NCBI GenBank assembly: GCA_002786025.1
Contig: NHNW01000108.1
Coordinates: forward strand, 1 to 50,977
Direction of reading: 5' to 3'
From: Zasmidium citrigriseum
Taxonomy: Eukaryota; Ascomycota; Dothideomycetes; Mycosphaerellales; Mycosphaerellaceae
Length of the DNA stretch: 50,977 nt
Part shown: positions 1-39,614 of the stretch, piece after piece
Layout: the number at the start of each line of letters is the position of its first letter
Numbering within the stretch: the stretch's first letter is position 1
Translations under genes and position numbers: made by a program
Notes under the pieces: generated by a model
The model's input: only the letters and a program-made list of their open reading frames with translations
What the model was told of the DNA's origin: nothing
Databases searched by the model: none

Positions 1-188
1 CTATTAGCCTCCTAGAAAATAACGGTGTAGTAGGCGCTAGTCTCGCCGAACTTATCGAGCTCTTTATTAATAGCCTCTTCTATAGGGTCTTGCTATCCTT
101 TATTATTAGTGTTTTCGAAGAGCTCGTCGATATCCTTATTATCGATCGGATAGCTTTATATACTATGTATTTCGTTAGCTCTAGCTTA

Positions 189-213
189 GACTAGTACGGA
201 CTAGTACGCTACT
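189..213. repeat. paired box a
   Basis: Two tandem units, GACTAGTACG then GACTAGTACG, are followed by CTACTAAGGA. The flank (AAGGAAGATTTTAAAC) resembles the flank of the box at 441. On minus the box sits in a plausible short intron. Confidence 0.5.
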
Positions 214-440
214 AAGGAAGATTTTAAACTTATATTATATCCCTAGCGGCTTTCTATCCTTTCTTCTTAAACACCTTCTAGAGCTTACTGCGTACATGGT
301 TAGCTATATTCAAGACTACAATGGAATATACTACTACCGGAAACATACTCTTCCTCGCTCTCTAGCTTATTATTAACATCTATCGGGTTAGGGTAGGTAG
401 CCTACTAGGCCGCACTACATACACTATTAGTCTAGATCCT

Positions 441-463
441 AACTAGTACGACTAGCACGCCGC
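441..463. repeat. paired box b
   Basis: Tandem units ACTAGTACG and ACTAGCACG are followed by CCGCTAAAGGA. It has the same orientation and similar flanks as the box at 189. Confidence 0.5.
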
Positions 464-1433
464 TAAAGGATTTTTAACATATAGGATCCTCTAGTTATAA
501 ACCGCTATTTTCGCGCTTAACTCGCGGGCCTACTACTCGGGGGATAGCGCGAGGTAGTCTTTATTTCTCTCGAGACGGCTAATAGCTAAACGCTTACTCG
601 CACGCGCTTTCTTAATAGCCTCCTATCTCGGAGCTCGGTTTATACGGCGCTTATTCTCTCTCATAGTATTCGGCTTCTTAGACTTCGCTTCTAGGGGCTT
701 TCGCTACTATAGCGTAGTACGGAAAGGCGTCTTATCCTTAGATTTCACACGCTTCTATAGCGTAGCTAGCGACTCGGATCTCTCTCGCTTTATTCTCTTA
801 GGTAGGTCGCGCTCTATAATAGCTTTCGAGTATACGGGTAGCGATGCGATTGATATACGACTTGTGTATAAACGAGCGGCTCGATACTAGTGTAAATAGC
901 GAAGATATACGTAGGAAAGGCGTATTATCGCCTAAACTCGCTAGCGTCGCTATATTAATACCGCCGTTACTAGGTAATAGACCCCTAGTAACGACGACAC
1001 CTCTTCGATAGCGATATCGAGGTTATCGATAATAAAGAAGAAGAAGAGGATAGGAAGCGAGAAGAAGGCACTAATATAGTGTTAGGAAGCTTGTGATCGT
1101 AGGTAGTTAATATAGGAAGTAAGCTAGTAACTAACCGAAGGAACGACTTCCTTAGCTATTATAAGACTCCGAGCTAGCCCTTTAGAGTACTAAGTAACTC
1201 TCTAAAGAGGAAAGCGGTAGATAGATCGACTAGACGAAAGATTACGAGCGAGTTAAGTATATCGAGACGTTAATAATCCCCGTAGTAGCCGGGATAATCT
1301 AGAAGCTAATATAGCCTATAGTACTACTCGAGAAGTGCTACGATCGATTCGAAGGTCCCTCCTACTAGTTACAACCTCTACGAATTTCGGTATACATTCA
1401 AAACACGAATCTCGAGGATCTTAGCAATCTGGA

Positions 1434-1457
1434 GCCGTAGTAGTCGCCGTACTAGTC
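1434..1457. repeat. paired box d
   Basis: CCGTAGTAGTCG is followed by CCGTACTAGTC, the inverse orientation of the boxes at 189 and 441. It lies upstream of the H3-like relic. A weaker relative is at 1276-1292. Confidence 0.45.
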
Positions 1458-1819
1458 TTATCTAGCGAGGCTTAGCCGGCTCGGCCAGATCTCTACACAT
1501 ACTTTAGGCTCTACCTATATCTAAGTAATATTAATTTCGGTAACGATTGGATCGGCTATACGAGAGTTTAACTACTACGGCATATAGTATATAGACCTCT
1601 ACCGTATAGGCTCGACCGTATTATTATAATAGGCCTTCGTCGACGCGTCTTTCTTCTATCTCCTTTTAATTAACACACCCTTTAACTAGGTCTCTATTTT
1701 AACGTAGATTAACACGATATTTACGTATTATCGACGGCTAGCTCGAACGAAGAGGGTGGTAGGTATTATAATACCTCTACTATTACCTAATATAGGCTAA
1801 GCTCTAGTAACACTAGCCT

Positions 1820-2300
1820 AAAAACGACCTCCGGCGAGGAAGACACTATCGAAGCTAAAGCCTAAACGCACGCCGACGAAGGGTCGATATATAGTACCTA
1901 ACTAGAGTAGCACTCCAAAGCGAAGGACTCGACGATTCGGAAAACCCCTTAAAGGCAAGAAATTAATAGGCACAGCTCTAGCCGGCCGGCGTAAATAGAA
2001 ACTAGGTATAGTCGCTCTACGTGAGATTCGATATATACAAAAGACTTACGATCTTATTATTCCTCGGATATCGTTTATACGACTTATTCGCGAAGTAGCC
2101 GCTACGTTTCGATATAACCTACGTTTCTAGTCTAACGTATTGTTCGCTTTACAAGAAGCCGCCGAGGCGCACCTCGTCCGCGAGTTTAAATATAGTCTTA
2201 ATCTTGTATTGCATATAAAAAGAGTAACAATTTAGTAAAGAGATATAAGGCTCGTACAAACACTACGAGATAAGATTCTTCTAATAGATAAGTTACTAGT
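1820..2300 (+). pseudogene. histone H3-like gene relic
   Basis: The frame starting at 2011 reads VALREIRYIQK, followed by PRISFIRLIREVA, LRF-stop-SNVLFALQEAAEAHLV and KRVTI-stop-stop-RDIRLV. This aligns without gaps over about 85 residues to the histone H3 fold: alpha-N REIRRYQ, alpha-1 PFxRLVREIA, alpha-2 LRFQSSAVxALQEASEAYLV, alpha-3 KRVTIMPKDIQLA. The tail upstream (1861-2005) is rich in Lys, Arg, Pro and Thr, as in H3. Stops at 1996, 2128, 2233 and 2236 fit RIP of CAG/CAA or TGG. Loop 1 has the canonical H3 length, without the short insertion usual in CENP-A, so this looks like an H3 variant and not an obvious centromeric one. Residues differ from canonical H3 at many usually invariant sites, so it is an old variant and not a fresh copy. 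The start codon is not identifiable. Confidence 0.8.
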
Positions 2301-2350
2301 ATAGAGGTAAGCGGATAAGTCTACTATCCGCTTAAGATTTTATTTCCTAA

Positions 2351-2375
2351 GACTAGTATAACTAGTACGGACTTC
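2351..2375. repeat. paired box e
   Basis: GACTAGTATA is followed by ACTAGTACGGACT, just downstream of the H3-like relic. Confidence 0.45.
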
Positions 2376-3420
2376 CTACCTACGAGGGCCTAGCTCTAAT
2401 ATCGACGACATCCCTAGTACTAGACTACCCTCCGCATCTGTGCTCCGACAAGACTTTTAAAGTATAGCGACAAGACCTTAAAGTATAGCGAAGAAATACT
2501 ACCTCTCGAATATCGGTTACCTCTATACTCGCCTACTACAAGGTATCTCTCTAGTTCTCGTAGGGCTTAAAGCTAATCTCGTCGGCCTAATAGATCGTTT
2601 CTTTATTATATATTTAATAGACCTCTTCTAGTACTAACTTCGGATATATTACTACTAGTATCGACTAGATCTCTAGTCTCGGTCGTAAGAGGCCGGCGTC
2701 GCTTCTCTTTATTAATAGCCTCTAGCTATAAGCGTATATAGTAAGCTATTACGAGGACTGTCTCGAAATATACTACTACTAAAAGCTACTAGTAATGTGT
2801 CTATCTATATATTTATCGAATCCTTCTACGCCGGCTACTATACCTACCCTATCGCTACGGATATATACCGAGTTCAAGTCCTAACTACTCCGCCTACTTC
2901 TTTACTAAGGGACTCCTCGATTACGCCGTCCCCTAGGTATAAGTTTACTCTTTCGGTGCGAGCTTACCGTATTACTATACTAGGGATTTACGGTAGTGCT
3001 AGTATTTCGGCTTCGGACTAGCACGACTACTACGCTAGCTCTTATATACTTTGATTAGGGCCCTTATATTCTTTAATTAGCGATTCTACGGCTTACTCCT
3101 GTCTTCGCTTTAATAGGCATTATATGTAAGACTTCGGTAAAGGAAGGAGCAAGCTGTCGCTGGCTAAGACACTATATAAAGGTGTTACTAGCAACCTTAA
3201 TCCTCTTCCCTTTATTACACCCCTACTACTAACTCTTAGTCGGCTCTTTAATATACGCATAGCGGTAGCTAGTATATATTCTCTATATTACTACCTACGG
3301 TCTCGATATACTAACGATAGCGATAGCTCGCCGCCGCCCTATATTGCTATACTAACTGTTACGAGCTCGCTATTAATGTTTTAATAGCGAGCTCGCCTTT
3401 CGTCTAAACCTCCTACACTA
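2376..3420 (+). other. decayed sequence with one short open stretch
   Basis: The only uninterrupted stretch is 2797-3021 (+, about 74 codons). It reads Ser/Tyr/Ile-rich, with no motif I recognise. A paired box at 3015-3039 overlaps its end. I read the rest as mutated element interior. No gene can be called. Confidence 0.4.
3015..3039. repeat. paired box f
   Basis: GGACTAGCACG is followed by ACTACTACGCTAGC. It combines the unit of this element (ACTAGCACG) with the unit typical of the 22242-32985 element (ACTACTACG), which links the two box families. Confidence 0.5.
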
Positions 3421-3709
3421 ACAATTCGAAATCGCCCTTATCGCCGTTAATTATAAGCAAATCGAAGAGACATTATAGGCAAAACGAAGAGAACGAGACT
3501 AGATAACACGCCGAGGAAGAGGCTAACGAGCGCCTTTAAGAAGACTAGAGCTATAAGACTACTAGCCCTAAATTAGCTAGTAGTAAAGAAGAAGAAGAAG
3601 TCTAGTACTTCATCTAGACTCGCCGATAGCCCCTATTAGTACCGCAGAACTCGCTTTAGAGAGAAGGTGTTATTTTAGCGACTAGCCGGAAAGACTCCCC
3701 GCAAGCGCC

Positions 3710-3766
3710 GTATATTTACACCGTAATAGTCCCCGTGCTAGTCGGGATTGAGCTAATAATAAATAG
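3710..3766 (+). other. spliceosomal intron containing a paired box (g)
   Basis: The 5' splice site is GTATAT, a CTAAT-type branch sequence lies near 3752, and the 3' end is ATAG. Inside, 3718-3746 holds ACCGTAATAGTC and CCCGTGCTAGTC. Removal keeps the flanking frame open with one base before and two after the junction. Confidence 0.6.
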
Positions 3767-3966
3767 GCACTAGTAACAAGCTCGTTAGATAGGCCCTCTT
3801 CCCTCTAGTCTAGGTAGCTAGTAAGTACTTCGCGTGTACTCGCAAGCTATTCGACCGCCTAAATAAGGAGATCTTACTCGACGTTAGTTTAATTAAGAAG
3901 AGGATATCGAGGGATACTTCGGTGCTTCTTTAGGCCGTTAGTAAAGGCTATATCGCGCACTACTTC

Positions 3967-4022
3967 GTAAGTATATTAACTTTCGATAGAAATTATTTAA
4001 TATATGTACTAATTTAATACAG
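3967..4022 (+). other. spliceosomal intron without a box
   Basis: GTAAGT at the 5' end, TACTAAT branch site and TACAG at the 3' end, 56 bp, all typical of ascomycete introns. The downstream frame fits better if the AG at 4023-4024 is used. Confidence 0.6.
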
Positions 4023-4510
4023 AGGTAGGCAAGATTATAACTATTCGCACTAGTCGCTTTATTAAGGAGTCGGATACGGACTAGCTATATAGATTATTAA
4101 AGGGCACCTTAATAGAGAAGGACATAGCGGCTTTAGAGGACTTTAAGAAACTCTAGGCGTAGGCTTTATAGGTGTCGATTCCGGACAAGTACTACACGCC
4201 GTCTTTGTATAGTATAGCGAAGAAGGAGTTTACGGTTAGGGCTAGTAGGCCGTTAGGTTCGCTTGGAAAGGGTAAGGGTAAGGAGAAGGAGGTCGTTCCT
4301 ACGAAGAAGAAGAGACTAGTTATTCTTCTAGACGAGGACGGCGCCGACGATAGCAATAGCGATAAGTAGATAGTTCTTTAGCGCTATACCTTCTTCGCTT
4401 CGATCGAGATACCCGGCACTTGCCTATATACTAATAGCTAAATGAATTAACCTTTTAGTGCTTACATTTAAGATCTTTCTAGCTCTACTTTATAATTTTA
4501 GCCTGTCTGT

Positions 4511-4536
4511 ACACCGTACTAGTCGCCGTGCTAGTC
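4511..4536. repeat. paired box h, right subterminal
   Basis: ACCGTACTAGTCG is followed by CCGTGCTAGTC, after the last gene and before the terminal zone. It is in the same relative place as the box at 32821 in the complete element. Confidence 0.55.
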
Positions 4537-4539
4537 TTC

Positions 4540-4679
4540 CCTGCAATTTCCCTTTCCCCTTTCCTTCCTAGCGTCCGCAATTTCCAGCCGGACTATATAT
4601 TATTTTATCTTCCCCTTCCTAATATTAGCGGGAAGGGAAGACGAAGAACCCTTTCCTTCCCTTCCCTTAGTAAGGTCTA
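4540..4679 (+). repeat. right subterminal zone and terminal inverted repeat
   Basis: A pyrimidine tract, TCCTAATATTAGCGGGAAGGGA and AACCCTTTCC lead to the terminal CCCTTAGTAAGGTCTA (4664-4679). The complete hAT element has the parallel order CCCTAATCTTACGGGAAGGGA, AACCCTTCCC and CCTATAGTAATGCCTA. The 8 bp after the end, ATCTATAG (4680-4687), would be the target duplication; its partner is outside the window. Confidence 0.6.
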
Positions 4680-22233: not shown

Positions 22234-22241
22234 ACGATACC
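22234..22241 (+). repeat. hAT target-site duplication, left (ACGATACC)
   Basis: ACGATACC immediately precedes the terminal repeat and is repeated exactly at 32986-32993. An 8-bp duplication is the hAT hallmark. Confidence 0.95.
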
Positions 22242-22257
22242 TAGGCATTACTATAGG
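22242..22257 (+). repeat. hAT left terminal inverted repeat
   Basis: TAGGCATTACTATAGG, a perfect inverted match to 32970-32985. The YAGNG-like start suits hAT elements. Confidence 0.95.
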
Positions 22258-22334
22258 TTTGTATATATCCTATCCTAGTAGGGAAAGGATATAGATATCT
22301 ATCCCCTAGGATAAGGTAGGATTTAGGATTTCCC

Positions 22335-22412
22335 GATCCCTACGGGAAAAGGGATCCCTTAGGTTAAAAGGGCTCCCTTATATAAAAAGGGATCCCTTTT
22401 CCCGTAGGGATC
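22335..22412. repeat. 26-bp perfect inverted repeat, left subterminal hairpin
   Basis: The arm 22335-22360 (starts GATCCCTACGGGAAAA) is the exact reverse complement of 22387-22412, with a 26-bp loop. GGGATCCC cores recur at 26535-26590. Confidence 0.95.
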
Positions 22413-22450
22413 CCTTTACTACGCGGGATACTAGGAGGCTAAAAAGAGAT

Positions 22451-22474
22451 CCGTAGTAGTAACGTAGTAGTAGT
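22451..22474. repeat. paired box 1 (left subterminal)
   Basis: CCGTAGTAGTAA is followed by CGTAGTAGTAGT. It lies outside any gene, mirroring box 11 near the right end. Confidence 0.75.
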
Positions 22475-23305
22475 TTAAAAAGAAAGTCTTAATTAGATAT
22501 AGTAGTAGAAGTACTTAAATATCTAAACGGATACCTCTAGTATACGAGTTCGTCTCCTATAGAAGGTGGATCTATTTAAAGACAAGCTACTCGTATACGC
22601 TTAATAGACCTAAACGTCCTTTTAGAGGCGTATCTATAGCGCGTCTTTAAATAGATCAACCTTCTATAGAAGAGGAGTAGCGGGAACTACTTAGCTAACC
22701 CGCCTAAATACTTATACGAGTATATCTACTACTATATCTAATTAGACGACGATAATTCCAATATATATAAATAGCCTAACATAGTACGGTTATAATAGGC
22801 TATATAGCCTAATTTCAAGCCGAATCGTTCTATTAACCGATTTAATATAGATCTCGAATAGGCCTCTTACCTATACTTCTTCGTAGATATAATAAGTTCG
22901 ACGTCGACGTTAGAGGCGATAACGATGTTAAGGATAATATCGCCTTCGTTACTAGCCTTCGAAATATCTTAACTTCCTATAGCCGCGAGGCATATTCTTG
23001 AATAGTATCTTCTTCCCCTTTAAATAAAGGATTGTAGTAGAGATCGTCCCTAATCTTAGTAACGATCTTACGCTAACTGTTATTAAGAGCTATACGAGCT
23101 ATTATCTAGTCCGAGAAGTTAGTTCCGTTGTACGGGCGATTAAAGCGATTCTAATACCGCGTAACACTAAATAGGCGCTTAATAGTAACGCTAGTACTAG
23201 GTACGGCGAGAATATTACGGGCGACTTAAGCTAGCCGTAGATATAGATACTCGATTAGCTTCTATAGCTTTAAAGGGTCGTCGCTAACTTTAAGGTTAAG
23301 GTGTA

Positions 23306-23368
23306 CTATAAATAGTTAGTAACTACTACTACGGTACTACTACGGTACTACTACGATACAATACTTAC
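23306..23368 (-). other. transposase intron with three-unit box 2
   Basis: On minus: GTAAGT 5' site, TACTAAC branch, TATAG 3' end, 63 bp. Splicing joins NYKTT to HLNLKVSDDPLKL in frame. Inside, three units of CCGTAGTAGTA type lie in a row (23321-23358). Confidence 0.85.
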
Positions 23369-23531
23369 TAGTAGTTTTATAGTTCTTAAACTCCTCTTCT
23401 ATCGTTATCGCTACCGTAGTATCGGGCTCGTTACTAAACGAAAAGTTACTGTCCTACTAAGAGTTATCTATTACCGTAGCGAAGTCCTTAGCTAGTACAA
23501 AATCTCGGTACTTCTTAAGGAAGAGCTTCTT

Positions 23532-23544
23532 TAATAATTCCTAG
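23532..23544 (+). repeat. 13-bp direct repeat left of the small element
   Basis: TAATAATTCCTAG is exactly repeated at 24132-24144. Removing the insert and one repeat restores the transposase frame (QYQELL joined to KKLFLKKYRDF). Confidence 0.9.
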
Positions 23545-24131
23545 ACCCCGAGATAGGCCGGGCCGGGTCGAAACCGGGTTTCGGCCTAGTAGTCGGCCTA
23601 GTAAAAGTAGGTTACTAGGCCCCTAAGAAATTTTACTAGGCTTTATAAGGTCCTTACTAGGTTTCTTCTTATTCTTTCTTCTACGTCTATTCTTAAGCTT
23701 AGATATTAAAGATAAGTATATACTCGATATATAGGTTCTATTTTAAGGTAGTTAGAGGCTAAAAATAGAAAAAAAGTGCCGGCTACATTGCCGGCTACAT
23801 TTTTTTTAAGGCTTAAAACGCGTTTTTAGGGCTTTTCTTTACCTTTCCTTAACTTTTTTATTTTTAGGAAAATTTTTTTTTATATATTCTAGATATATTA
23901 CGTAATATAGCTTCTTCTAAAGACGATACTATAGTATATAGTATATCCTAATAGTTTAATAGATATAGATCTAAAGAAAAGGTCGTTTCTTTAGGAAAAC
24001 TTCTTACTAGGTTTCTAGGCTTTCTAGGCTTTACTAGGCTACGACCTGGCCTAGAACCTAGTATACTAGGCCGGCGCCAAGAACCCGGCCTAGTAAAACC
24101 TACTAGGTCGAACCCGGCCCGCTTCGGGGTC
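23545..24131 (+). mobile_element. 587-bp non-autonomous inverted-repeat element
   Basis: Ends are ACCCCGAG...GGCCGGGTCGA and TCGAACCCGGCCCGCTTCGGGGTC, inverted with small gaps. It has no coding capacity. The ends are GC-rich with nested palindromes of CCGGG and CTACTAGG, and the middle is AT-rich with long A and T runs. A 13-bp duplication flanks it, longer than usual for most families (Mutator-like elements give 9-11). It keeps more TG/CA than its host, for example twice GCCGGCTACATT near 23780. The superfamily is undecided. Confidence 0.8.
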
Positions 24132-24144
24132 TAATAATTCCTAG
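24132..24144 (+). repeat. 13-bp direct repeat right of the small element
   Basis: Second copy of TAATAATTCCTAG. Confidence 0.9.
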
Positions 24145-24782
24145 TACTATCCTTCCTATTAGTCGTTATCCTACTCTTTCCGTCTAAAGAATACGTTCTT
24201 CTATGTAGGTACTAGTAAAACTACATGTCCGTATATATAGCTAAGGGATAACTAGGTTGCAGAGTAGTACTTAGATAGCTTAGCTCTAGCGAGCGATACC
24301 GCCGAGAGGAGCGCCTTACGCTAGTAATTAGTACGCCGATTAAGCTCGTCCTTAGCCTCCTTAATTTAGACGAAGAGGCGCGTATAATAAGCGTAGACGA
24401 GGTAAAGCGTAGGGCCTAAAGAGCGGCTAATCTTCGACGTTACCGCTATAAATAGCTAAGTAATTTTAATAATCTCCTCGACCTACTAAAGCTCTAATTC
24501 GTCTAGTCGAAGATAATCTAGGTCTTGTCCTTAGAGGAACTCGTCGATAAATCGATAGATTTTAACGTAACGTATTAGTATATACGTTATTAAGTCCTAG
24601 CGCGTCGTTATATCCTATATAGGTATTAATAGACGGGTCTGCTGTCGCTTCTTATTAAAGGCCCCTCCGCTAACCGACTTCGTATAGAGAGTATTTTCTT
24701 TCTCTAAGTACTTCTTCTAGAGATTAAGAAAGGCTTCTAGCCGCTATATACTTACTAAAATCTAAAGGATAGAAGCGCGGAG

Positions 24783-24834
24783 CTAGTGAAAAAATTAGTA
24801 CTACTACGCTACTACTACGGTTAATATTCCGAAC
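24783..24834 (-). other. transposase intron with box 3
   Basis: On minus: GTTCGG 5' site, TACTAAT, then a T run and CACTAG, 52 bp. Splicing joins YGYLYILAK to LRASILQILVS in frame. The two box units (24797-24821) fill the centre, and the second overlaps the branch site. Confidence 0.75.
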
Positions 24835-25753
24835 CTTAGCTAGGATATATAGATATCCGTAATTAATATTACGCTTTTCCTTCTTATTCTCTAGCGCCTC
24901 GCGTTAGTCCTTCTTATTCTAGTTACGCTTAAACACCTCGTTCTTCGGTCGAATCTTAAGTAAATCGTAGAAGTCGCTAATAGTAAGTTATATAATATAA
25001 GCGAGACACGGGACTAGCTGCGGTCTTTCCTTTAATATCTTCGTATTATATTCGTTGTCGCCTATCTACGCTAGCCGGCCCTCCGGGTTAGTTACTATTA
25101 AGCTTAGAATAGGGAGAGGCTCGGTATCTTCGGTAGTAAGATAGGTTTTATTAGTATAGGTAGCTATACATTTAAGACTATTTACTATTAGCTACTAAAG
25201 CGCGGAGTAGGTAGTGCAATACTTATATCGAATTATATAGAGTCTTATTATTTAAGGCGTTATCTATAGTAAACGCAGAGATACGCTTCTTAAGCTTATA
25301 CTGTTTAATTATAGCATTAACGTACTTAGAGAGGTTTACACTAGTATAGCGACCCTAGATCTCGTCGAAAGCGAGGAGCTCTTCGTAATAAGTCTAATCT
25401 TAATTAATCTAGAAGCCCTTTATTCCAAGATAGGCGTAACGACGATTTGAAGTGCTCTAGGTATCGAGGACGATAGTAACCTTTAAGTTAATACTCTTTA
25501 GCGACTATAGCTTATTAACGATTTCTTTCACTAAGTTCTTAGCCGCGGAAGTTATATAGCGCCGAATCGTAGTAGGCGAGAGGAATTCGGCCTTCCTATC
25601 TAAATACTTATAGCTCCGCTTTATATAAAGGTTTTCGAAGAATATTATAGGGACGCCTATACTAATATATACGTTTACCTAAAGGTCTTTAAAGTCCTTA
25701 GGGCCGCAATCGAAGCCGCTAGCGAAGATAGCTTCTTCTTTCCGTCGCTTACT

Positions 25754-25806
25754 CTATCGATATCTTAGCCGTAGTAGTACCGTAGTAGTAGTTAATATTA
25801 ATATAC
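25754..25806 (-). other. transposase intron with box 4 in opposite orientation
   Basis: On minus: GTATAT 5' site and GATAG 3' end, 53 bp. Splicing joins the finger exon to SKRRKEEAIFASGF. Relative to the gene, the box (25768-25792) is inverted compared with boxes 2 and 3. Confidence 0.75.
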
Positions 25807-26527
25807 CTATACTCGAAAGCCCTCGAGAATAGTTCCTTAACGCTTTTTGCTAGTTCTAATTCTAGTAAGTTAATAGTCCAAGGTGTCGAGGTGTCGAGTT
25901 ATACTAGAATTCCTATTGTTCTTAGTAGCCGGGTATTTAAGGACTCGGTTACAAACCTTATAGACAATCTTTAGCTCGCTAGTAGTAATAAGGATTCCTT
26001 CGTCGTAGTATTCCTACTCTCTAGCTATCTTCTTAGATCTAAACTTAACTCCCCTAACGCCTCGTTAACTATAACGGTCCTTAGCGGTAGCCTAAAGCGA
26101 GATCCCCTATAGTATTTAAGACTAGAACTTATTAAACTGTTCGTAATATAATCGATCGTGTATATAGTAGTTAGCCTTCTTAATAAACGTTACATTTACG
26201 AAATCGATAGCCTCTCGCGTATTCTAGTTATCTAAACGTAGCGAAGAGATTAAGGAGGAACCGGCGGCGGTAGTTTTTAATCGAGTATTAGTAGATAGAC
26301 TCTCTAAGTTTACGGTTTCCTATAACGAAGGTTCTTACGAGGAGGTCCGCTATAAGGCCGATAGACGTAAGGTAGATAGGCGTAGAGACCGTCGAACTTA
26401 TCTATTTAGAATGTCTAGATTAATAGTACGTTAGCGTAGAGGTATTGCGGGTAGGCGAGGCTAAGAGCTACTTACGAAGGATAATATTATAAGAGAACGC
26501 GTAGCGCGATATAAATAAAGAGGTGCT

Positions 26528-26597
26528 AGTAAGAAGGGATCCCGTATATCCTAAGGGACGCGGCTATCCCTTAGGATAAAAGGGATCCCTTCTTACT
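26528..26597. repeat. nested palindrome with GGGATCCC arms
   Basis: AGTAAGAAGGGATCCC (26528-26543) pairs with 26582-26597, and inside it TATCCTAAGGGA (26547) pairs with TCCCTTAGGATA (26567). The GGGATCCC core is shared with the left subterminal hairpin. Confidence 0.9.
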
Positions 26598-27016
26598 ACT
26601 CTTAGCTTAATCGATAGGCTAGTAGTAGTATACTCTTATAGCTTAGTAGAGAGGCCTAAGTCGTATAATATAGCGATCTACGGAAGATAGGGCTAGAAAG
26701 AGTTAGTCGTACGGCTCGTTCTCGTAGATTGTACTTTAGCGTTGTTACTTCTAAGGTAGAGTAGCGCTAAAAGCGCCTTAGAGTCGATAGTACGGCTCGT
26801 TCTCGCTTAGCTAACTATCTTAGGTATAGACTATCTTATATCCGAGATATTCCTCGTATCTCTCTATACGTATAGGCCCTTAGCGGCGAGCTCGGAAATA
26901 ATATTAATTCTTTCTATATCGAGGACTAGCGTTAGGGTTATAGACGAAGAGTTACTTAGGGTTAGAGGAAAGGCGGCGACGACGAGGTTAGAATTACGAG
27001 AACGAAGAAAAAAATT

Positions 27017-27042
27017 AGACCGTAGTAGTACGTAGTAGTAGT
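27017..27042. repeat. paired box 5
   Basis: GACCGTAGTAGTA is followed by CGTAGTAGTAGTAC, flanked by AAAAAAATTA on the left and AAAATACTAGTAAAATTTTAG on the right. That right flank could be a plus-strand intron end. Confidence 0.7.
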
Positions 27043-27199
27043 ACAAAATACTAGTAAAATTTTAGATTGTCTAATAAACGTAGAGGTGAGCTACGAGGAG
27101 TTAATTAAATCTCTAGATTTATCGGCCTACCGAAAATTAGGCCTAAAATTGTTAATAAACAAATATCGTGTAAGTACTACCCTATCTTCGCCCTTAAGA

Positions 27200-28930
27200 C
27201 TCTTCTTAGGTACTAATAAATAGAATCGACATTAATAATAGAGACATATCTATTCGGAATTTACGCGACTATCTACTTTTAAAAGCGCTAGCGGCCTATA
27301 CCTAGCTTAAAATATTAGGATCCTTAGGATTCTCCGCTAAAAGACGCGTCTCGCTAATACTATTAATATTAATACTATTATTAGCTAGCTTCTCTACGAA
27401 CTCCTATAACTCCTTCGTAGACTCTAGATCCTCCGTAGCGACCTAGCTATATCTATCGTAATAGCTAGGATTATCTAGCTATACTACCGCTAGGCCTAGT
27501 AACGTATATACCTCTTTATTATCTATCTCTTTATTATCTATCTTTTCGACTGTATCCTCGAAGACCGTATTCTCGAACTATAGTTCCGCTAAGTACTTAT
27601 AGCGGCTAAGCTACTAAGGATAATAAGCCTCTAGACTCTAAGATATAAGATTGCTCTATAGCGATATCTTAGCTCTCGTGAAAAACTTATATAGTATTGG
27701 TAGGCGAGTACCGCTATTTATCTAGGCTACGAAATTATTATACTCGTCCTACGAATTCATTAGTAAAGCTCTAGCAAAACGAGTAGTAGACGTACCGGCT
27801 CCTTAGGCTCTCGAATATAGAGAGTACGAATATTATTAACTCTATACTAAGCTTTAGCTAACTTGATTATACTAGAGGCGCCGATAGGCTTATCCGCCTT
27901 ATCTACCTACTCGAAATCCTAACGCTTACTACTAAAAGCTATCCTCCTTTCTACTTTAATATAGCGGCTATCGACGTATAGTATATCGTATATATACTAC
28001 TTCTTTATTAAGCTACTACGAACTTCTATCTAGGCTTTAGTAGGGCCGCGACGGTAACGGGTATCGAAGTCTATAGCGAACTTCTTTATTATCTCTAAGT
28101 AGGCCTAGCTAGGATCTATAGTACGAATAGGACCGAGACTATTATCTGCCTCTACTAGACCGTAGAGCTCGCTATTATCTTCGTCTTCGGCGATAAAATC
28201 CTTAAGCTTATCCTCTTTATTAGACTCGTTACTATATATATAGTTAGTATCTACCTCGACTACTACGGTACTACTACGGTCTCTAATATATTTAAACTTA
28301 CGGCTTAGGTAACGCTAGCTTAGGCTCCTCGGCTTACTTATCCTTAGAGACCTCCTTATCCCTCTCCTTAATAGCGGCTCTATATTTACTATTAGTATAT
28401 ATCTCGAATATAGCGGTACTAGACCGCTAGGACGGCTAGATATTAATATACTAGATTAACTTCTCTTGCTACTAACGAATTGCGTCCTCTATCGCCTACT
28501 ACGTCTCTAGCGTAGCCTACTTGTACTTCTTATTCTTATTCTTTAACCGCCGGATCGCCGAATCTCTAGCCTTCTTTAGATTCTTAACCTTTCTAGCCGC
28601 CTTACTTAGGTTATTACGACGCTTGTTTTCCTTTATACTATTATTATTCTTCGAATACTAATATAGCTAAAGACGCTTCTACGGCGTCGCCTTAGCCTTA
28701 GTTCTCTTACGCGATTATAGTGTCGCTAGCTCTAGGGAGGCCTTTCGCTTCGACGATCTACGCGGCGTACTAGTATCTATTTTAGCGGACGAGACTACGG
28801 TCGGCGATACTTACGATATACGAAGGACTTCGAATACGACGTTACGAGTATAAAGATACGAGTTAAGGATATAGAAAGCGTAGCGAAGGACGATATCGCT
28901 ATTAAAACAATTAGTAAAATATTAACGAAG
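27200..28930 (-). pseudogene. basic coiled-coil cargo gene, unknown function
   Basis: On minus the N-terminal half is highly charged: LELATLQSRKRTKAKA, IKENKRRNNLSKAARK, KNLKKARDSAIRRLKNKNKK and KERDKEVSKDKQAEEPK. The intron at 28232-28301 joins LALPKP to NESNKEDKLKDF in frame. The second half reads DEDNSELYGLVEADNSLGPI, IIKKFAIDFDTRYRRGPTK and SSIIKLAKAQYRVNNI. A homologue of the first half lies at 480-845 in the other hAT-like copy, so the gene belongs to the element family. The coiled coil suggests a self-associating, nucleic-acid-binding accessory factor (inference). Stops are RIP-type. Confidence 0.6.
28232..28301 (-). other. intron with box 6
   Basis: On minus: GTAAGT 5' site, GACCGTAGTAGTA and CCGTAGTAGTC box (28258-28281), TACTAAC branch, TATAG end, 70 bp. 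The join is in frame. This is the clearest box-bearing intron. Confidence 0.88.
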
Positions 28931-29639
28931 TTAGCGTTACTATAGAAACTTACTCTCCTCTATCTACTATAATACTACTACTAAACTACTAGATAGGTTA
29001 CCGAGATAGTATTGTTTAGAATAGAAGAGCGAGGTAGAGGCAAGGAGTTAATATAGTACCTACTACGGTAATTACTAGTTGTATATAAAGCGCTAGCGAG
29101 TAAAGCGATAACTAAGGCTTTAGTAATAGCTTAATATGCGAGACAGGCCCTCGAGATTAGGTACAGTAAGTACGAAGAGAATAGAGCGAGAGATCTAGCG
29201 ATAAATACTACGCTATAAGGGCTAGCTAGTTCGAATCTAGAGTACGAACTAACTGTAGTAGTACTATAGTAGTAAAACTTTTTCGGCTAGCCTAGATAGG
29301 AGTAGCGGACTTCTAGTACTATACTCCTTTCTACCTCGGAGATTTTAAGAGGGTATACGAGACTATCTAAAGAGTCGTAAGGATTTAATCTATAAACCGT
29401 TTTATTAAATACTAATAATATCGTAGTATTAATTTTACGTTACTTACTAGCTCTAGCCTTACTCTAATCGATCGAACGAACTATCGTCTAAAAGCGGAAG
29501 TATAGTACTTAAGCCTAAAGGAAATTCCGCTAACGGTCGAATAGACTTATAGCGTTTAGAGCTTAGTACTAGCGCTAGCCGTACTTTCGAGACGAAAGGG
29601 GAGGAAAGTTTAAGGGGAATTATAATATAGAGGGATTAA
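28931..29639. other. spacer with box 7
   Basis: Divergent interval between the minus coiled-coil gene and the plus genes, so promoters probably lay here. Box 7 (29252-29274) reads CTGTAGTAGTAC and TATAGTAGTAAAAC. Confidence 0.45.
29252..29274. repeat. paired box 7
   Basis: Two units, CTGTAGTAGTAC and TATAGTAGTA, then AAACTTTTT as in box 10. Confidence 0.65.
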
Positions 29640-30417
29640 CGACTAGGGTATAGTATAATCTTATTTCTTCGCTCCGTAGGCCCGCGTATTTCTTGTCCTG
29701 AAAAAATCAATAGCTAATAGTCTATTAAAGCTAAAGCCTTTAGCGCTATCGAGATCTTCGAGATCCTCGACGTCTACTCTCTAACTATTACTTAGAGATC
29801 GAGAGAGTATTATAGAAAATTAATATAGTAGCGAGCTAAGATAGGATCTACCTACTAGATCTTAAGATAGTTCTACCGCCTATATATATATACGAAAATC
29901 GACCTAGAGCCTCTAGTAACGCCGCGATCGATCTAACTCGTCTATTATTAAAGTTGAAGAATTCTTAGTACTAAGGTAGTAAACGACTACTACCGCTATT
30001 AAAGACTTTAAAAAGCCCGTTAAAGAATCGGAACCGCGAACTAAACTAGTATTAGACACTAAGGCGAGCCTTTAGATCGAAGTATACTAAATAGTATTAG
30101 CTAAGACGAAGATATCGTTTTAAGCTAGGTATAGTCGCCCTCCGTAAGATACGAAATACTTAAAAACATTAGGAGCTGCTTATTCCTCGACTACCTTTCG
30201 TAAGACTAGTTCGTAAAGTTATAGCTACTTTCTAAGCCAATATACGCTTCTAATTAAACGCCCTCTTCGCGCTTTAAGAAGTAGCCGAGACCTTCCTTAT
30301 TAGCGAGTTCGAATATATATAACTTCTCGCGTACTATACAAAACGAGTTACTATAAAGGATACCGATATACGGCTAGTTAGATAGCTTCGTTATAAGATT
30401 ATACTAATAAGATAATA

Positions 30418-30443
30418 GACTACTACTACGGACTACTACGGTC
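30418..30443. repeat. paired box 8
   Basis: GACTACTACTACG is followed by GACTACTACGGTC. Orientation is opposite to boxes 1, 5, 7, 10 and 11. Confidence 0.7.
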
Positions 30444-30949
30444 TATCTAGAACCTAAAGTTCGTATACCTCTACCGCGAAGTTACTAGTAAAGCCGTAGC
30501 TAAATCGTATTAAGATAGCCGCGCTCTCGAGGACCTCTAAAAAGGAAGCTCTAAACGTTAGAAACGCTATAGCTGTCTTTAATATTTTTAATGTCTAAGA
30601 GGCGCCTTCGGGTACCTTAACTGCCTCTAGTCCTAAACCTGCCGCCGATATTACTATTAGGCTTTCTCGAACTATATAGCGCTAATCTTTAAAGGTATCT
30701 CGCGTGTATATTAACTCTTTAATAGGCTGTACGAATCTTCTATACTAGAAGCTAGAGACCTTACTATCGCTATAACTTCGCGGCTATACTCGAATACTTC
30801 TATCCTTACGCTATATCTTTATTTAGGACGACTACTATAGTAAAGACTAGCTAGAGTATCGAGCTTAACTGCCTTAGACATTACGAATCTCTTAATCTAA
30901 ATACCTAAGCTAGAGAATTTCGTCTAGCGAAGTACTATATATATAGCGA

Positions 30950-31004
30950 GTATCTAGCTCGACTACTATAGTACTACTATAGTCTTAAATATATCGAAGA
31001 TTAG
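30950..31004 (+). other. probable intron with box 9
   Basis: GTATCT 5' site, box GACTACTATAGT/ACTACTATAGTC at 30961-30984, CTTAAAT as weak branch and TTAG end, 55 bp. The flanking frame is not firm enough to prove splicing. Confidence 0.5.
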
Positions 31005-31915
31005 ACTATCGTCGGGACTATAGGCTTTTAAAGCCTAAGGATCTAGCCTCTAGTACTTCCGCTGCTCTAGACCTTCGTTTATCGACGGTATATTACTAGA
31101 ATATAGTCGCACTTCTTAATTAGGATAGATAGATATCTCGATACTTAAGCTAGGCGCTAGAATACTACTACTTATCGCTTCGAATCTCCGTTAGCTTCTC
31201 TTTGTTAGCGACTCTATACTAGCCTATCTTATATCTCGACTATTATCTCGCTACTACCTTAGATATTATCGATAGCTTTAAGCTACTCGAAGCCTTACTT
31301 TACTAAATAGTCTATTATATACTATATATACTAGAGTTTGCTACGGAGGCAGTTACGACTTGCCTATCTCGCCTATATATAGTCTCGATTACTACTTACT
31401 ACCCTTCTCCTCGATATTAATAACCCCCCCTTAATATCGTCGCTAGCGGTAAGGGCTTTAGTAGAGGATACTTAATAGGTATAACTAACCTCGCTACCGA
31501 TATCGTCGCTATACTAACTAATAGTAGAACCTTACCGCTAGCGGCTCTATAGCGACGCTAGCGAGTCGTTACCGTAGTAACGCTAGCGTCGCTATTAATA
31601 ACTTCGGCGACGAGCTCGAAATCCTTCCTCCTCGAACTATACTCTACCTACTATACCTACACCTTCGCCGTTACCTATATACGAATTATACGAATACGAT
31701 AGCAAAAACTAAGTAGACCGCGAGTAGCGCCGTTACTAGCGGTAGACTAGGCGCTAGAGCGAAGCGACTACGTAAGACGCCTAGACTAATATAAGTTAAG
31801 AAGAGAAAGGCTACTCGGAAGGCCCTACTAGAGGGCAAATATAAGTATAAGACGAATAGATTCGGAGAGCGTATAATAACCTAGGCGCCGCGAGTTTCGA
31901 AGTATCGGACGATAA

Positions 31916-31969
31916 GTATATTTTGACCGTAGTAGTACTATAGTAGTCTAACTTTTTACTAATATTTAG
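31916..31969 (+). other. intron with box 10 in the H3-like gene
   Basis: GTATAT 5' site, box GACCGTAGTAGT/ACTATAGTAGTC at 31925-31948, TACTAAT branch, TTTAG end, 54 bp, in frame on both sides. Confidence 0.82.
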
Positions 31970-32210
31970 ATAGGTAAGATAGACCGCGAGATTAAGTAGT
32001 ACTAGTTAAACGGAGGAGTTAAGAAGTTTAATAAGACGATAGAGGAGGTGTTTATAATTCCTTAGTAGAAGTTCCTCTTATACGTAAAGGAGTTTATTTA
32101 GGAGGAGGCGCTTAGGGTTAGAAAAGATACTACCTTCTTCCGTGTTACTAAGGGTGCTACTGTTTTACTATAGTCGGTCGCCGAGGGTACTCTCGTCGAG
32201 CGCTTCTATA

Positions 32211-32262
32211 GTATACTTTTCCTATCTAGCTTTCGGTTTAGGCTATACTAATTTACGAATAG
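32211..32262 (+). other. second intron of the H3-like gene, without a box
   Basis: GTATAC 5' site, TACTAAT branch (32246-32252), AATAG end, 52 bp. Without it the alpha-2 and alpha-3 segments are in different frames; with it they join. Confidence 0.78.
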
Positions 32263-32820
32263 TAGTAATAGAGGCTATCCGTTACCGCGTTAGCGAGAAG
32301 AAGTAGGCAGCGAAGAGTACTCGTACTATAACAGTTAACGACTTTAATCTCTTCGAGCGTATAAGTAACTTAAAGTAGCTCGTTAGCCTACGTATCGCTA
32401 TTCCTACTCGGTTCGCTAAGAAGTCGCTTACCTACGCTAAGCTCGGCCGCGATTTAGAGGAGGCTCTAATCTTAGGCTATACTAGAACGACTAGAGAGTA
32501 GAGACAGATAAGGGCGTTTAAGAAGCTAGTAAAGTAAGCCGCGTAGACGAATACTACTACGCTAGACTAGCGGGCTTTCTAGGCCTTATACGTCGACTGC
32601 TTCGATAACTAGCGCACTTAGGGTAATTAGGGCCTAGATCCAAACTCGTAGTTAACGAGTAACTAGATAGTAGCTCTTTCTTTAAGCTTTCTTTTCGATC
32701 GAGATACCTAGTACTTACTAATACGTAGATAGCTTCTTTATAATAAAAAGGACGCGAGTAGCGTCTTCTAATATACGAAAACTTTATATCTACTCTCTCT
32801 AAGCCTTATATTCTAAGCCT

Positions 32821-32842
32821 CCGTAGTAGTAGCGTAGTAGTA
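32821..32842. repeat. paired box 11 (right subterminal)
   Basis: CCGTAGTAGTAG is followed by CGTAGTAGTAC, beyond the last gene and about 150 bp from the right end. Confidence 0.75.
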
Positions 32843-32969
32843 CTTTATTTCCGGATTATTCCTAATTATCCCTTCTTTATCCCGATATCCTAAGGGTCCT
32901 ATTATCTTAATCTTTATCCCTTTCCCTAATCTTACGGGAAGGGATAAGGATATATATAACCCTTCCCGT

Positions 32970-32985
32970 CCTATAGTAATGCCTA
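32970..32985 (+). repeat. hAT right terminal inverted repeat
   Basis: CCTATAGTAATGCCTA, exact inverse of 22242-22257. The adjoining subterminal zone carries ACGGGAAGGGATAAGG and AACCCTTCCC. Confidence 0.95.
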
Positions 32986-32993
32986 ACGATACC
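32986..32993 (+). repeat. hAT target-site duplication, right (ACGATACC)
   Basis: Exact copy of 22234-22241; the gypsy sequence resumes here. Confidence 0.95.
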
Positions 32994-35199: not shown

Positions 35200-38100
35200 A
35201 GTATAAAGACTATAAGACGACGTTCTCGTCTCGTAACGCCCTATACGCCTACCTTCGAGCTAGATATCCTATAGTCGGCTATTCTAACGATAAGCCCTTA
35301 GGCCTAGTACTAATAAGTAGTAAACCTATCCTTATCGAATCGATAGCGCTAGCCTCTCGCGACTAAGGCTACGCTTTCCGCGGATAGTCTTATATTACTT
35401 TCCCCCTACGATTTACGCTAGATAGTAAGAACTAGAGTATATACCTCGATACGGGGTATAGTATAACTATCGCTAATAAGACGTAGCTTCTAAAATAGAT
35501 ACCTAACTTAAAGATCGAGATACTAACTAAGCTAATCCGTATTAGCGGTATTACTAGCTCTTACGACTCGTCCGAGTACGCTATAGTATTACTCCTAGTA
35601 CTAGGCTAGAGGAAAGGGAAGCCTATCCTTATAAAGATAATATACGAAATTTACCTCGTCGACTACCTTAAGCCTAAACTCCTCGTTAGTATAGACCTTA
35701 TTAGTATAGAATCTATAATAATCGACGCGAGTAATAGTAGAGTTACCGTTAATAACTATATAGGCGCGACGTTTAACGTTACTATTCGCTATAAGAAGAG
35801 TAAGCTAGTCCTAAGAAAAGTTATAGCTATAGAAGATACGGTAATTCTAGTAAAGACTATCGCGCTAATCTCGGCGAAGATACGTAGCGAGCTCCCTAAG
35901 GGTAGAGACTATAACTTCGATAGTAACCTCTCTACGTAAGTTATATAGTAGCCCGATAGCTTATAGTCTATCCTATAGGCGTATAACGCTATTATCGACG
36001 ATAATTTTAGCTACGCCTTTATACGTAACGAATCGGACAACCTAATTACCGTTAAGGCTAGTAGCCCGTTAGGACTCCTTACTAACTAGATATTTAAGGG
36101 CGCTTACCTTATTAACCCTAAGGACTATAGCCTTATAGGAGTTAGTCCTATAGCTCTAATACCTATACCGTTACTAATAGCGTCCCTATCGTCGACGCCT
36201 AAGCCTAGATAGTACGCCTTAGTAGAGTATTATAAACCTAATCCCTCCTACGAGTACGTCTATATCTCTAGCGTTATACTATATATAGAGAGTAAGGAAG
36301 CCTATAACCTATTAGCTATAGAGATTAAGTAAATACCCTACCTATTTATAGATCGTAGTACTACTATTAATATACCTCCTAAACGCTATATACCTATTAA
36401 GCTCTATAATAACTAGTAGTCTAAGCTACTAACGCCTAAGCTCTTTAATATAGGTCTACGAGATCGTAGCGTTATTAACGATATATATAACGATCTATAA
36501 GCCTAGGGTAAACTCGAGTAGACTAATAAGCCTATACCTTTTAGGTTCCTAGTCTTCGTAGTATAGAAGAAGGTACCTAATAGTAAAGGTAATCTAATCG
36601 ATAAACTACGAGCCGTAGTAGATATCCGCGGTCTTAATAAGCTCGTCGTACCTAATAGCTATTAGGTTCCCCTATAGTCTAATATCTTTAGTAGCCTTAT
36701 AGGGTATTACTATATTAGTATAATAGACTATATCTCGTTCTTCTACTAGTAGCTCGTCGCTAAGGAAGATCGCTATAAGTAGACTATTAATATATACCGC
36801 GGCTAAGAGACCTTTAACGTAGTAGTAATAGGTAACTATAATACCGTTTAGTACGTTATACGAGAGATCGACCGCGCTTTACGAGCTTACCGCGATTTCG
36901 CTTAGGTATTTATTAACGATATCGTAGTATTCTCTCGTACCTTATCTAACTACCTCGCTTACCTATAATAAGTATTCGAGATCCTCGACGAACTATAAGT
37001 TAGCCTATCCGCGAAGAAGACGTTTCTCGGCTACTCGTCTATAACGCTCTTAGGAATATACGTTAGTAGTCTAGGTATAGCTACTAATAAGGAAAAGATT
37101 AAGGCGATTCTCGATATTTAGTTTCCCTATAACCTTACTACTCTAGAATACTACCTTAGCTTAACGGGCTAGTTAAGGATATATATCGCCTACTACGCTT
37201 AGATCGTAGACGTCCTAGCTAAGGAGAAGAAGCGCCTCCTAAAGAGTAGTCTAGTATCGAGGAATAGCCGTCGTAAGTACGTCCTTAAGACGTCTCTAGG
37301 CGAGTCTAATAAACACCTAGCCTAGCTCTACGACGCCTTCCTTAACCTATAAGAGATATTTTGTACGACTAACTTCTTTTACTACTACGTCGTTACTAGA
37401 TAGCTCTATACTAATATCGATTTAACTTACGAGTTTAGCTATAGCGTAGTCGTCTATATAGTAGAAGGTAACCCCGAACTACTTATAGATAGTAATAAGG
37501 CGATAGTTTTCCCTCGAGAAAAGATCTAACCCGTTATATTCCTTAGCCGTAGTCTTATAGACGTAGAGAAGCGCTACTAGCCTACTAAACTCGAATATTT
37601 AGGTATCGTCTAAGTAGCTAGAAAGATCTATTACCTACTCTACGTATCGACTAAGCTAGTAATCTTCTTTACTAATTACTATATAGTAGTTAGGTTATTA
37701 GACTAGAGCTCTCTAACGACTACTACCTATATAGATCGTCTTAACCTTAAGTTAGTCTATACTACTACCTACCTCTCGTAGTTCTAGCTTCGAGTTATCT
37801 ACTATCCTAGACGTATTTATATAGTCCCGGATACTCTAAGCTAGCTCCTCGGCGATACTAAGTCCCCTAAGAAGACGCCTAACGTAGAGAACCTCGACCT
37901 ATTCGCCTACTACGTTAAGATAGACGACCGTCCTAACGTCCCCTCTACTAAAGACGACTAGTTTAGCGACTAGTCTCTTATAGAAGTAGGCGCTTTCTAC
38001 GCGATACTAGTAGAGATCGATCCTAACTTCCGTCGTAGACTTTAATAGGCCTATAACGACGACCCCTACTAGTACTAAGTCTTATAAATAATTAGCCGCG

Positions 38101-39614
38101 CCTAAGCTCGTAACCGCCTAGAACGAGCCTACTTATAGAGCGAGGATATCGTCGTTAATAGTCGTACGCTAGTACGTTATAACCGTAGCGACGACCTGTT
38201 CGCGGGGGACGAGTTTAATAGTCTACTAGGTATTCGGTTCTTCGAAAAGGATAGCTTTATCTACTATCGTAGAACTTAGCGAGGAGTAGAACGATTATAC
38301 GTACTCGTCGCGCTAGAAAAGGAGATTTTCTAAGACGTCTACGATAATCGCTATTACTAAGGTTTTTACTACTACTATAACTATATCCGAGTATCGTTCT
38401 TTATATATAAGCTAGCCCGCTACCTACGCCTATATATCGAATTCTATTAGCCGTACTAGCTTAATTAGACGTTACGCTACTCGCTATACGACGAGTTATA
38501 GCTAATCTAATACGAAACTCTCCCCTACTATATAATAACCCTCGACCTAGCCTCTAGTCTCCCTACGCTCGTTAGAGGGGAGAATACTATTATAACTACG
38601 ATATATAAGGCTAGTAAGAAAGCTAGCGTTATCTATAGCTCGCTCGACGACCTAGCCGAGGTTTAGAGGGGTAAGTAGATTAATATACTCTATAGGAAAG
38701 CTATAAGCGTACTAGTTATTATTATTATAGACCGTAATCCTCGCTAGTTATTAGACTTTTTTAAAGGTATATTTAATAAGCTAGGCGTTAAATTACTAAC
38801 CTCTACTACCTACTACGCCTAGACGAATAGCTAGTTAGAGCGTACTAACTAGACTGTAGAGACGGCTCTACGTTATTAGATTACTAACTACCCTAGTAAA
38901 GACTAGTTAGTTTATATTCCCTAACTAGAGGCCGTCCTTAATAACTCCTATAACGAGTCTACTAGCTACTCCCCTAACTAGGTTATATAAGGCTAGAATA
39001 CTAACCTTAATAGGCTTACGACGCTCTATAGGCTAGATACTCCTAGCGTAGTAGCCGAGCGAGGCGTAATCTATAGGGAGATTAAAGATACCCTAGCTTA
39101 GGCCTTAGCTAAGATAAAGATACGCTACGACGGTAAGTATAAGCTACTACTACTCTGCCTAGGCGATAAGGTTATAGTACGCCTATACTATAGCTACTCG
39201 ATCCCTAGATAAGAGTTATATAAATTCGGCTATTAGCGCGAAAGTCTATTTAAGGTGTTAGAACGTATAGGGCTACTAGTATATCGACTCGAACTTCCCC
39301 TAGTATAGAATATCTACCTAGTACTTTCTATTATATACCTAGAGAAGGTCCCTATAGGACTAGATCTATACGACTAATAAGCTAACTACGAGCCTAGGCT
39401 AGTAGTCGTAGACGGGGCGTCTCGGGATTAGGAGGACGACGTAGCGTCGTACGAGATTAAGAAGCTCCTAAAAAGAAGATATAGGATAGTACGTAGAAAG
39501 TAAGTAGTAGAATATTTAGTAAAATAGCTTAGATAGGGTAATACGTATAATATATAGTATAGAGAGGACGACTTAGAGGACGCTAAGGAGATAATAGAAG
39601 CGTTCGACGCTTAA
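35200..39614 (+). pseudogene. pol: gypsy pol: protease, RT, RNase H, integrase, chromodomain
   Basis: Protease: YLDTGYSITIANKT with the catalytic DTG at 35448-35456. Reverse transcriptase: VVDIRGLNKLVVP near 36615-36655, YRGQETFNVVVIGNYNTVQ, and the active-site box as FINDIVVFS at 36909-36932. The Asn replaces the expected Asp, as a TpG-to-TpA change would give. Then KTFLGYSSITLLGIYVSSLG and the RNase H block (about 37400-37800) with KLEYLGIV. Integrase core: Asp at 38544, IIIDRNP Asp near 38730, QTNSQLERTNQTVE Glu at 38838. The chromodomain (39450-39614) reads YEIKKLLKRR and VEYLVKQLRQGN, ending EAFDA then TAA. This order is that of Ty3/gypsy chromoviruses. The chromodomain would steer integration to marked chromatin. 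Confidence 0.92.

Follow-up and report, generated by a model that had tools for sequence, protein, structure and literature searches.

A complete hAT transposon and its H3-type histone

The window analysed here, the whole 50,977-nucleotide stretch of Zasmidium citrigriseum contig NHNW01000108.1, holds at positions 22242-32985 a complete hAT transposon that is heavily mutated by repeat-induced point mutation (RIP) and carries an H3-type histone; we call it family A, the first of five hAT families (A to E) considered below. The giant element that an earlier note had delimited there was exact to the base, with perfect 16-bp terminal inverted repeats (TIRs) and an 8-bp target-site duplication (TSD), and it was the top match in an unguided scan of the window for TSD plus TIR. 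TIRs with an 8-bp TSD, by which a hAT is recognised, were thus found in family A, and further TSDs in families B and C. A second complete family A copy (C60:146302-156444) has similar ends and a different TSD (GTTATTAG). Alignment of the two copies over 10,143 bases shows 367 transitions and 15 transversions, so that RIP accounts for nearly all of their difference; the RIP signature in three large segments of the window is a CA+TG count only 0.01-0.11 of AC+GT, with an excess of TA. This signature marks the host as a filamentous fungus, and by eye the host CENP-A is like that of Dothideomycetes. A 600-bp stretch of the window copy that is missing from the C60 copy is a small family C hAT with its duplication. 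Palindromic GGGATCCC blocks form near-perfect inverted repeats at 22335-22412, near the left end, and at 26527-26598 in the element interior.

The stretch 29978-30409, missed by the earlier note, reads as a clear H3-type histone gene (H3La): it matches Pfam Histone over 30104-30388 (E = 5.4e-21), its closest PDB structure is H3 (E = 3.5e-24), and it matches its family D homologue at E = 5e-26. Its predicted structure has four helices in H3 order at a predicted local distance difference test (pLDDT) score of only 64, and the model's best Foldseek match (E = 0.19) is one chain from a hexasome complex. The earlier note had put its H3-fold cargo at 31970-32380 and had named the lack of a histone-fold match there as grounds for abandoning it. 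Since neither the three forward frames nor the spliced product gave a Pfam Histone match, those grounds apply to that stretch, and we rejected it as the main histone, the clear gene lying upstream; the element does carry an H3-type histone, as the note had proposed. The intron-containing gene near the right end (H3Lb) probably represents another, highly divergent H3 gene, judging by its homology to a family D gene and by a first intron at an H3-type position, even though no Pfam family supports it. Spliced, it is colinear with H3 by profile alignment (hhalign E = 0.0023, but with a probability of just 12%); the predicted structure of exon 2 (pLDDT 48) is too low in confidence for use. An H4, H2A or NF-Y type was weighed by eye for this second histone and set aside, having no Pfam support.

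The transposase gene lies on the minus strand and was said to hold a full set of hAT motifs. This was borne out for the C-terminal dimerisation domain PF05699 (approximately 23160-23282, E = 3.7e-6, exceeding the curated Pfam cut-off) and for further blocks, which align with transposases of families B, C, D, and E, but a complete set was only partly found: of what we take to be the catalytic acidic motif, two candidate Asp residues were placed by eye in the RIP-damaged frame, and the third was not placed. A protein search with the transposase returned three distant matches, all with the source "jgi". For the coiled-coil gene, the plus-strand frame at 28801-29500 is unsupported (best Pfam match nonsignificant, E = 0.11) and was rejected. 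A minus-strand frame at 28523-28900, basic and coiled-coil-like, has a conserved counterpart in family D (window 554-916, E = 9e-10) and matched no Pfam family. Between the basic frames of B/C and those of A/D there is weak similarity only (E = 5e-4 at best when the four sequences were compared), and we do not claim homology.

Histone-carrying hAT families across the genome

We surveyed the genome (44.4 Mb in 148 contigs, the window being C11) and found at least 49 histone-fold places, 38 of the 49 having TAG or TAA stops within the matched stretch by our own count. They include H3-type genes in at least five hAT families, a number in one genome that is apparently new. Ends with TSDs were seen for A, B, and C, and ends for D; those of E were looked for and none were found. 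A pattern search for the ends of A, B, C, and D, into which 16 of 31 family A end matches were entered and 15 weaker variants were not, gave 13 pairs, the 13th being the 592-bp insert in the window. Every one of the 12 pairs longer than 5 kb has a histone place inside (A 4/4, B 3/3, C 2/2, D 3/3); whether the H3-like gene always sits within the same ends was a check that the earlier note had proposed. The overlong pairs, one of B (15.8 kb) and two of D (27.6 and 28.1 kb), probably contain nested insertions, or each could be two broken elements. For 16 of the 49 unpaired ends, a histone place lies inward at a distance of up to 10 kb, in one case belonging to another family.

Protein searches with the element histones returned no element-borne histone recognisable by name among the best 120 of 3008 and of 4186 matches (E <= 0.001). 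A divergent H3-like protein of Pseudogymnoascus destructans (P0155, 129 aa, on a 3.4-kb contig) has 47% identity to the family D histone. One locus of the surveyed genome (L010, C69:454895-455158) is a diverged H3-like frame of approximately 97 residues with no RIP damage and a long tree branch; it may represent a variant H3 of the host or an element histone since domesticated. RIP damage in the family D part of the window (1-4679) is lighter than in most of the window, and a family B frame (C120:313263-313643) contains a 21-bp tandem repeat.

Co-divergence, constraint and introns of the element histones

The histone tree (26 rows) joins A with D (support 98/96) and B with C (97/92), and groups A, B, C, D, and E2 (85/89). 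The unrooted tree of transposase block 1 (10 rows) splits A and D from B, C, and E (99/97) and joins B with C (87/90), and block 2 returns the same main split. The agreement between histone and transposase splits fits long co-inheritance.

Because RIP produces transitions only, we used transversions as a RIP-proof measure of constraint. Between two D subfamilies the histone has 11 transversions in 387 sites, against 178 in 2010 elsewhere (Fisher's test: P = 1.2e-5), and the histone core (window 2021-2340) has 4 in 320. Pairwise comparison of eight histone sequences, with host H3 among them, found transversions to be most numerous at the third codon position in 27 of the 28 pairings, with a tie in one.

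Splice sites of the element histones were picked by eye. In E1 and E3 of family E, a 51-nt intron with donor GTAAGT lies in KLG-T(I/V)ALREI; intron 2 of host H3 lies in KPG-TVALREI, in the same phase and one codon further upstream, and an alternative E1/E3 donor three bases upstream would make the position identical to it. An intron of H3 type in E1 and E3 is not expected of a gene that originated as a transcript copy. The first proposed intron of family A H3Lb is in phase 1, four residues upstream of the conserved REI, which is the position and phase of the E1 and E3 intron; that of D H3Lb is nearby and also in phase 1. A second intron, in alpha 2, has a common position and phase in E3 (48 nt, in frame) and A H3Lb, and is one residue off and in phase 0 in D. 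H3La of A, B, C, and D as well as E2 read through the fold with no intron. Elements of Pseudocercospora fijiensis have a second H3-like copy that differs by a 16-residue insertion (PMC6710886), which could be explained as an unspliced intron of this kind.

Paired sites in the spacers and introns

Families A, D, and E each have a paired site of their own, of 11-13 bp and repeated in spacers and introns, which is apparently new. The patterns were chosen after the repeats had been seen. For the family A site, (CCGTAGTAGTA)x2, there are nine matches with at most three mismatches (two of them overlapping), in both orientations and all within the element (0.01 expected). Pairs of the (CCGTRCTAGTCG) type of family D have three matches, all in window 1-4679 (none expected), and family E has pairs of the (CCGTAGTTAGTAG) type. 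Under a strict rule that allows no transversion per half-site, A retained four pairs, the window part of D two, the left end of a D copy four, and E one; B, C, and two stretches of the window used as controls gave none. All 11 of the listed A sites fall outside the aligned coding blocks, which make up 30% of the element; the chance value of approximately 0.02 is weak because the transposase intron around one site was set aside by hand. Four H3-type genes (A, D, E1, and E3) each have a site in their first intron, and the sites nearest to the ends lie 143-209 bp from them in A and 143-164 bp in D.

Table 1 Features of the family A element, of the remaining window and of the other H3-carrying hAT families
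Feature	Position	Strand	Remarks
Left TSD, ACGATACC	22234-22241	.	Exact match to right TSD
Left TIR, TAGGCATTACTATAGG	22242-22257	+	Perfect 16-bp terminal repeat
Paired site	22451-22472	+	209 bp from left end
hAT transposase gene (aligned blocks)	23046-25747	-	Many stops, introns, nested insert; PF05699 and shared blocks
Paired site, three half-sites	23324-23356	-	In presumed transposase intron
Nested non-autonomous family C hAT, 592 bp	23542-24133	.	TIR TAGACCCCGA, TSD ATAATTCC; inside transposase gene; not in C60
Paired site	24799-24820	-	
Paired site	25769-25790	+	
Paired site	28258-28279	-	
Basic coiled-coil-like frame	28523-28900	-	Conserved in family D
Paired site	29253-29274	+	
H3La, H3-type histone	29978-30409	+	Several stops, no intron in fold; Pfam Histone, PDB H3, family D
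H3Lb, probable second divergent H3-type gene	31696-32400	+	Family D homologue, hhalign, intron position
H3Lb proposed introns	31916-31973, 32211-32262	+	Placed by eye
Paired site	31927-31948	+	Within first proposed H3Lb intron
Paired site	32821-32842	+	143 bp from right end
Right TIR, inverted TAGGCATTACTATAGG	32970-32985	-	Perfect 16-bp terminal repeat
Right TSD, ACGATACC	32986-32993	.	8 bp
Family D, right part, truncated by contig start	1-4679	+	H3La 1834-2286, H3Lb ~3460-4190, right TIR 4664-4679
Family B hAT, 9056 bp	C120:306192-315247		TSD AGTAGAAG; among least RIP-damaged
Family C hAT	C93:7664-17470		TSD GTAGTAGC
Family E	C1:299-312 kb		Transposase and three H3-type genes (E1, E2, E3)

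Elsewhere in the window (approximately 36600-39610, plus strand) are RIP-damaged pieces of a Ty3/gypsy-like retrotransposon with reverse transcriptase, RNase H, and chromodomain in a single frame.

Interpretation and alternatives

Our best explanation, which we believe and doubt in about equal measure, is that family A is a RIP-killed autonomous hAT of an old fungal lineage in which H3-type genes are built in and inherited with the transposase, nucleosomes being placed under the guidance of the paired sites. In the living element, one of its own proteins (the transposase or the basic coiled-coil-like protein) would have bound the paired sites, both close to the ends and throughout the element, and nucleosomes at those sites would then have received the H3 that the element encodes. 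Such variant chromatin may have sustained expression of the element, or access to its ends, against host silencing, and would have failed to prevent RIP. That the element shaped its own chromatin had been suggested in the earlier note; this may be so, and co-divergence, constraint, and family-specific repeated sites lend it indirect support. The broader proposition, that transposon-specific H3 variants, some with the host intron, are placed via family-specific paired sites in a system of self-directed chromatin that lets the transposon evade silencing and to which the published elements also belong, is possible and is put forward tentatively.

Several observations weigh against this explanation. 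Families B and C have no paired sites, so the sites are unnecessary for a histone-carrying hAT, and the two families count against guided placement as a general rule; the double sites themselves, with 2 transversions in 73 positions, offer too few for judging constraint. The histone is not the only constrained part of family D: the frame at window 581-1140, a second constrained island that contains the basic frame, has 15 transversions in 560 positions, about the level of the histone. E1 and E3 are placed with CENP-A in the histone tree, weakly and on long branches. A single clade of element histones (P = 0.40) and a grouping of B and C with CENP-A (P = 0.24) were both left unrejected by approximately unbiased (AU) tests, which do not demonstrate a single origin. 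Finally, no histone place lies within 10 kb of 33 of the 49 unpaired ends, some of these 33 being near a contig start.

Rather than on the element itself, its histones could act across the genome, weakening host heterochromatin as dominant variants, with the paired sites serving transposase binding only, as subterminal-type repeats spread inward; we regard this as doubtful but possible. hAT subterminal sites typically lie near the element ends at distances like those of the outermost sites in A and D, and the histones of B and C, which have no such sites, also fit genome-wide action. The sites found in the interior and in introns would, however, be superfluous for end binding.

Passive transduplication, in which a hAT captured a host H3 transcript as a passenger and the copies drifted until RIP killed them, is the view taken in PMC3538342 and PMC6710886, and seems to us rather unlikely. 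Gene capture by DNA transposons is established, as PMC3538342 states, and the intron-free folds of E2 and of H3La in four families are what a captured transcript would leave. Against it stand the histone found in each of the 12 long elements, which span four families, the splits shared with the transposase, the smaller number of transversions than elsewhere, and the H3-type intron of E1 and E3. Together with the paired sites, these observations favour a built-in chromatin module, which is plausible, over passive capture; the reading as a captured housekeeping gene is the weaker one. Several independent captures, with the histones of B and C derived from CENP-A and the others from H3, are improbable: family B has by eye a CENP-A-like RWQ motif and a longer loop 1, it matches the centromeric Cnp1 best among PDB structures (E = 2.3e-25) whereas A matches H3 best, and the AU test leaves the CENP-A grouping of B and C standing, but the lead of Cnp1 over H3.1 (E = 1.9e-24) is small, and the best tree puts the family B histone outside CENP-A, uniting A, B, C, D, and E2.

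Should the histone prove to be something that the element has long retained under selection, nucleosome components would count among the tools that transposons encode. Selfish DNA would then have a way around silencing that can be tested, and divergent H3 and CENP-A-like histones would have an origin. Both the paired sites and the histones with introns lead to concrete predictions for the published species, with mostly intact copies in Pyrenophora.

Comparison with known systems

VANDALs are plant Mutator-like elements. In the VANC/VANDAL system of Arabidopsis, an anti-silencing protein of the element recognises short, family-specific, often tandem motifs in non-coding parts (PMC5735166). The likeness to our element lies in family-specific repeated motifs in non-coding parts, and holds only if the inference on the sites holds. 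The available text of PMC5735166 reports no element histone for VANDALs; a six-frame Pfam search here gave hAT and histone as the sole matches above cut-off and no VANC-like family, so the element is not a VANDAL member.

An H3-like gene between the ends of a hAT, as found here, has precedents in seven fungal species in total (PMC3538342, from 2013, and PMC6710886, from 2019), contrary to the earlier note, which knew of no described hAT family with an H3-type histone; both papers, in the text available, read the H3 as a captured housekeeping gene. Our literature search, which excluded bioRxiv and most subscription journals, recognised no further publication on an H3-carrying hAT. By their description, the hATs of P. 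fijiensis and five relatives (PMC6710886) resemble ours in length (approximately 9.5-10 kb), in having one or two H3-like genes, in TIRs, 8-bp duplication, and RIP damage, and in being confined to AT-rich blocks; ours differ in comprising at least five families and in the dispersed paired sites, the H3-type intron in some histones, and the shared tree splits. The H3L hAT of Pyrenophora tritici-repentis (PMC3538342) likewise has a transposase, an additional open reading frame with no known function, and a gene for an H3-like protein that is neither a typical H3 nor CenH3; as described, it is 5.6 kb long and mostly intact, whereas ours is approximately 10 kb and RIP-damaged. The available text of the two papers makes no mention that we found of paired sites or intron-bearing element histones. 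The element is thus of a kind already known, and what is apparently new is the number of families, the histone in all long elements, the agreement of the trees, the constraint, the introns, and the paired sites.

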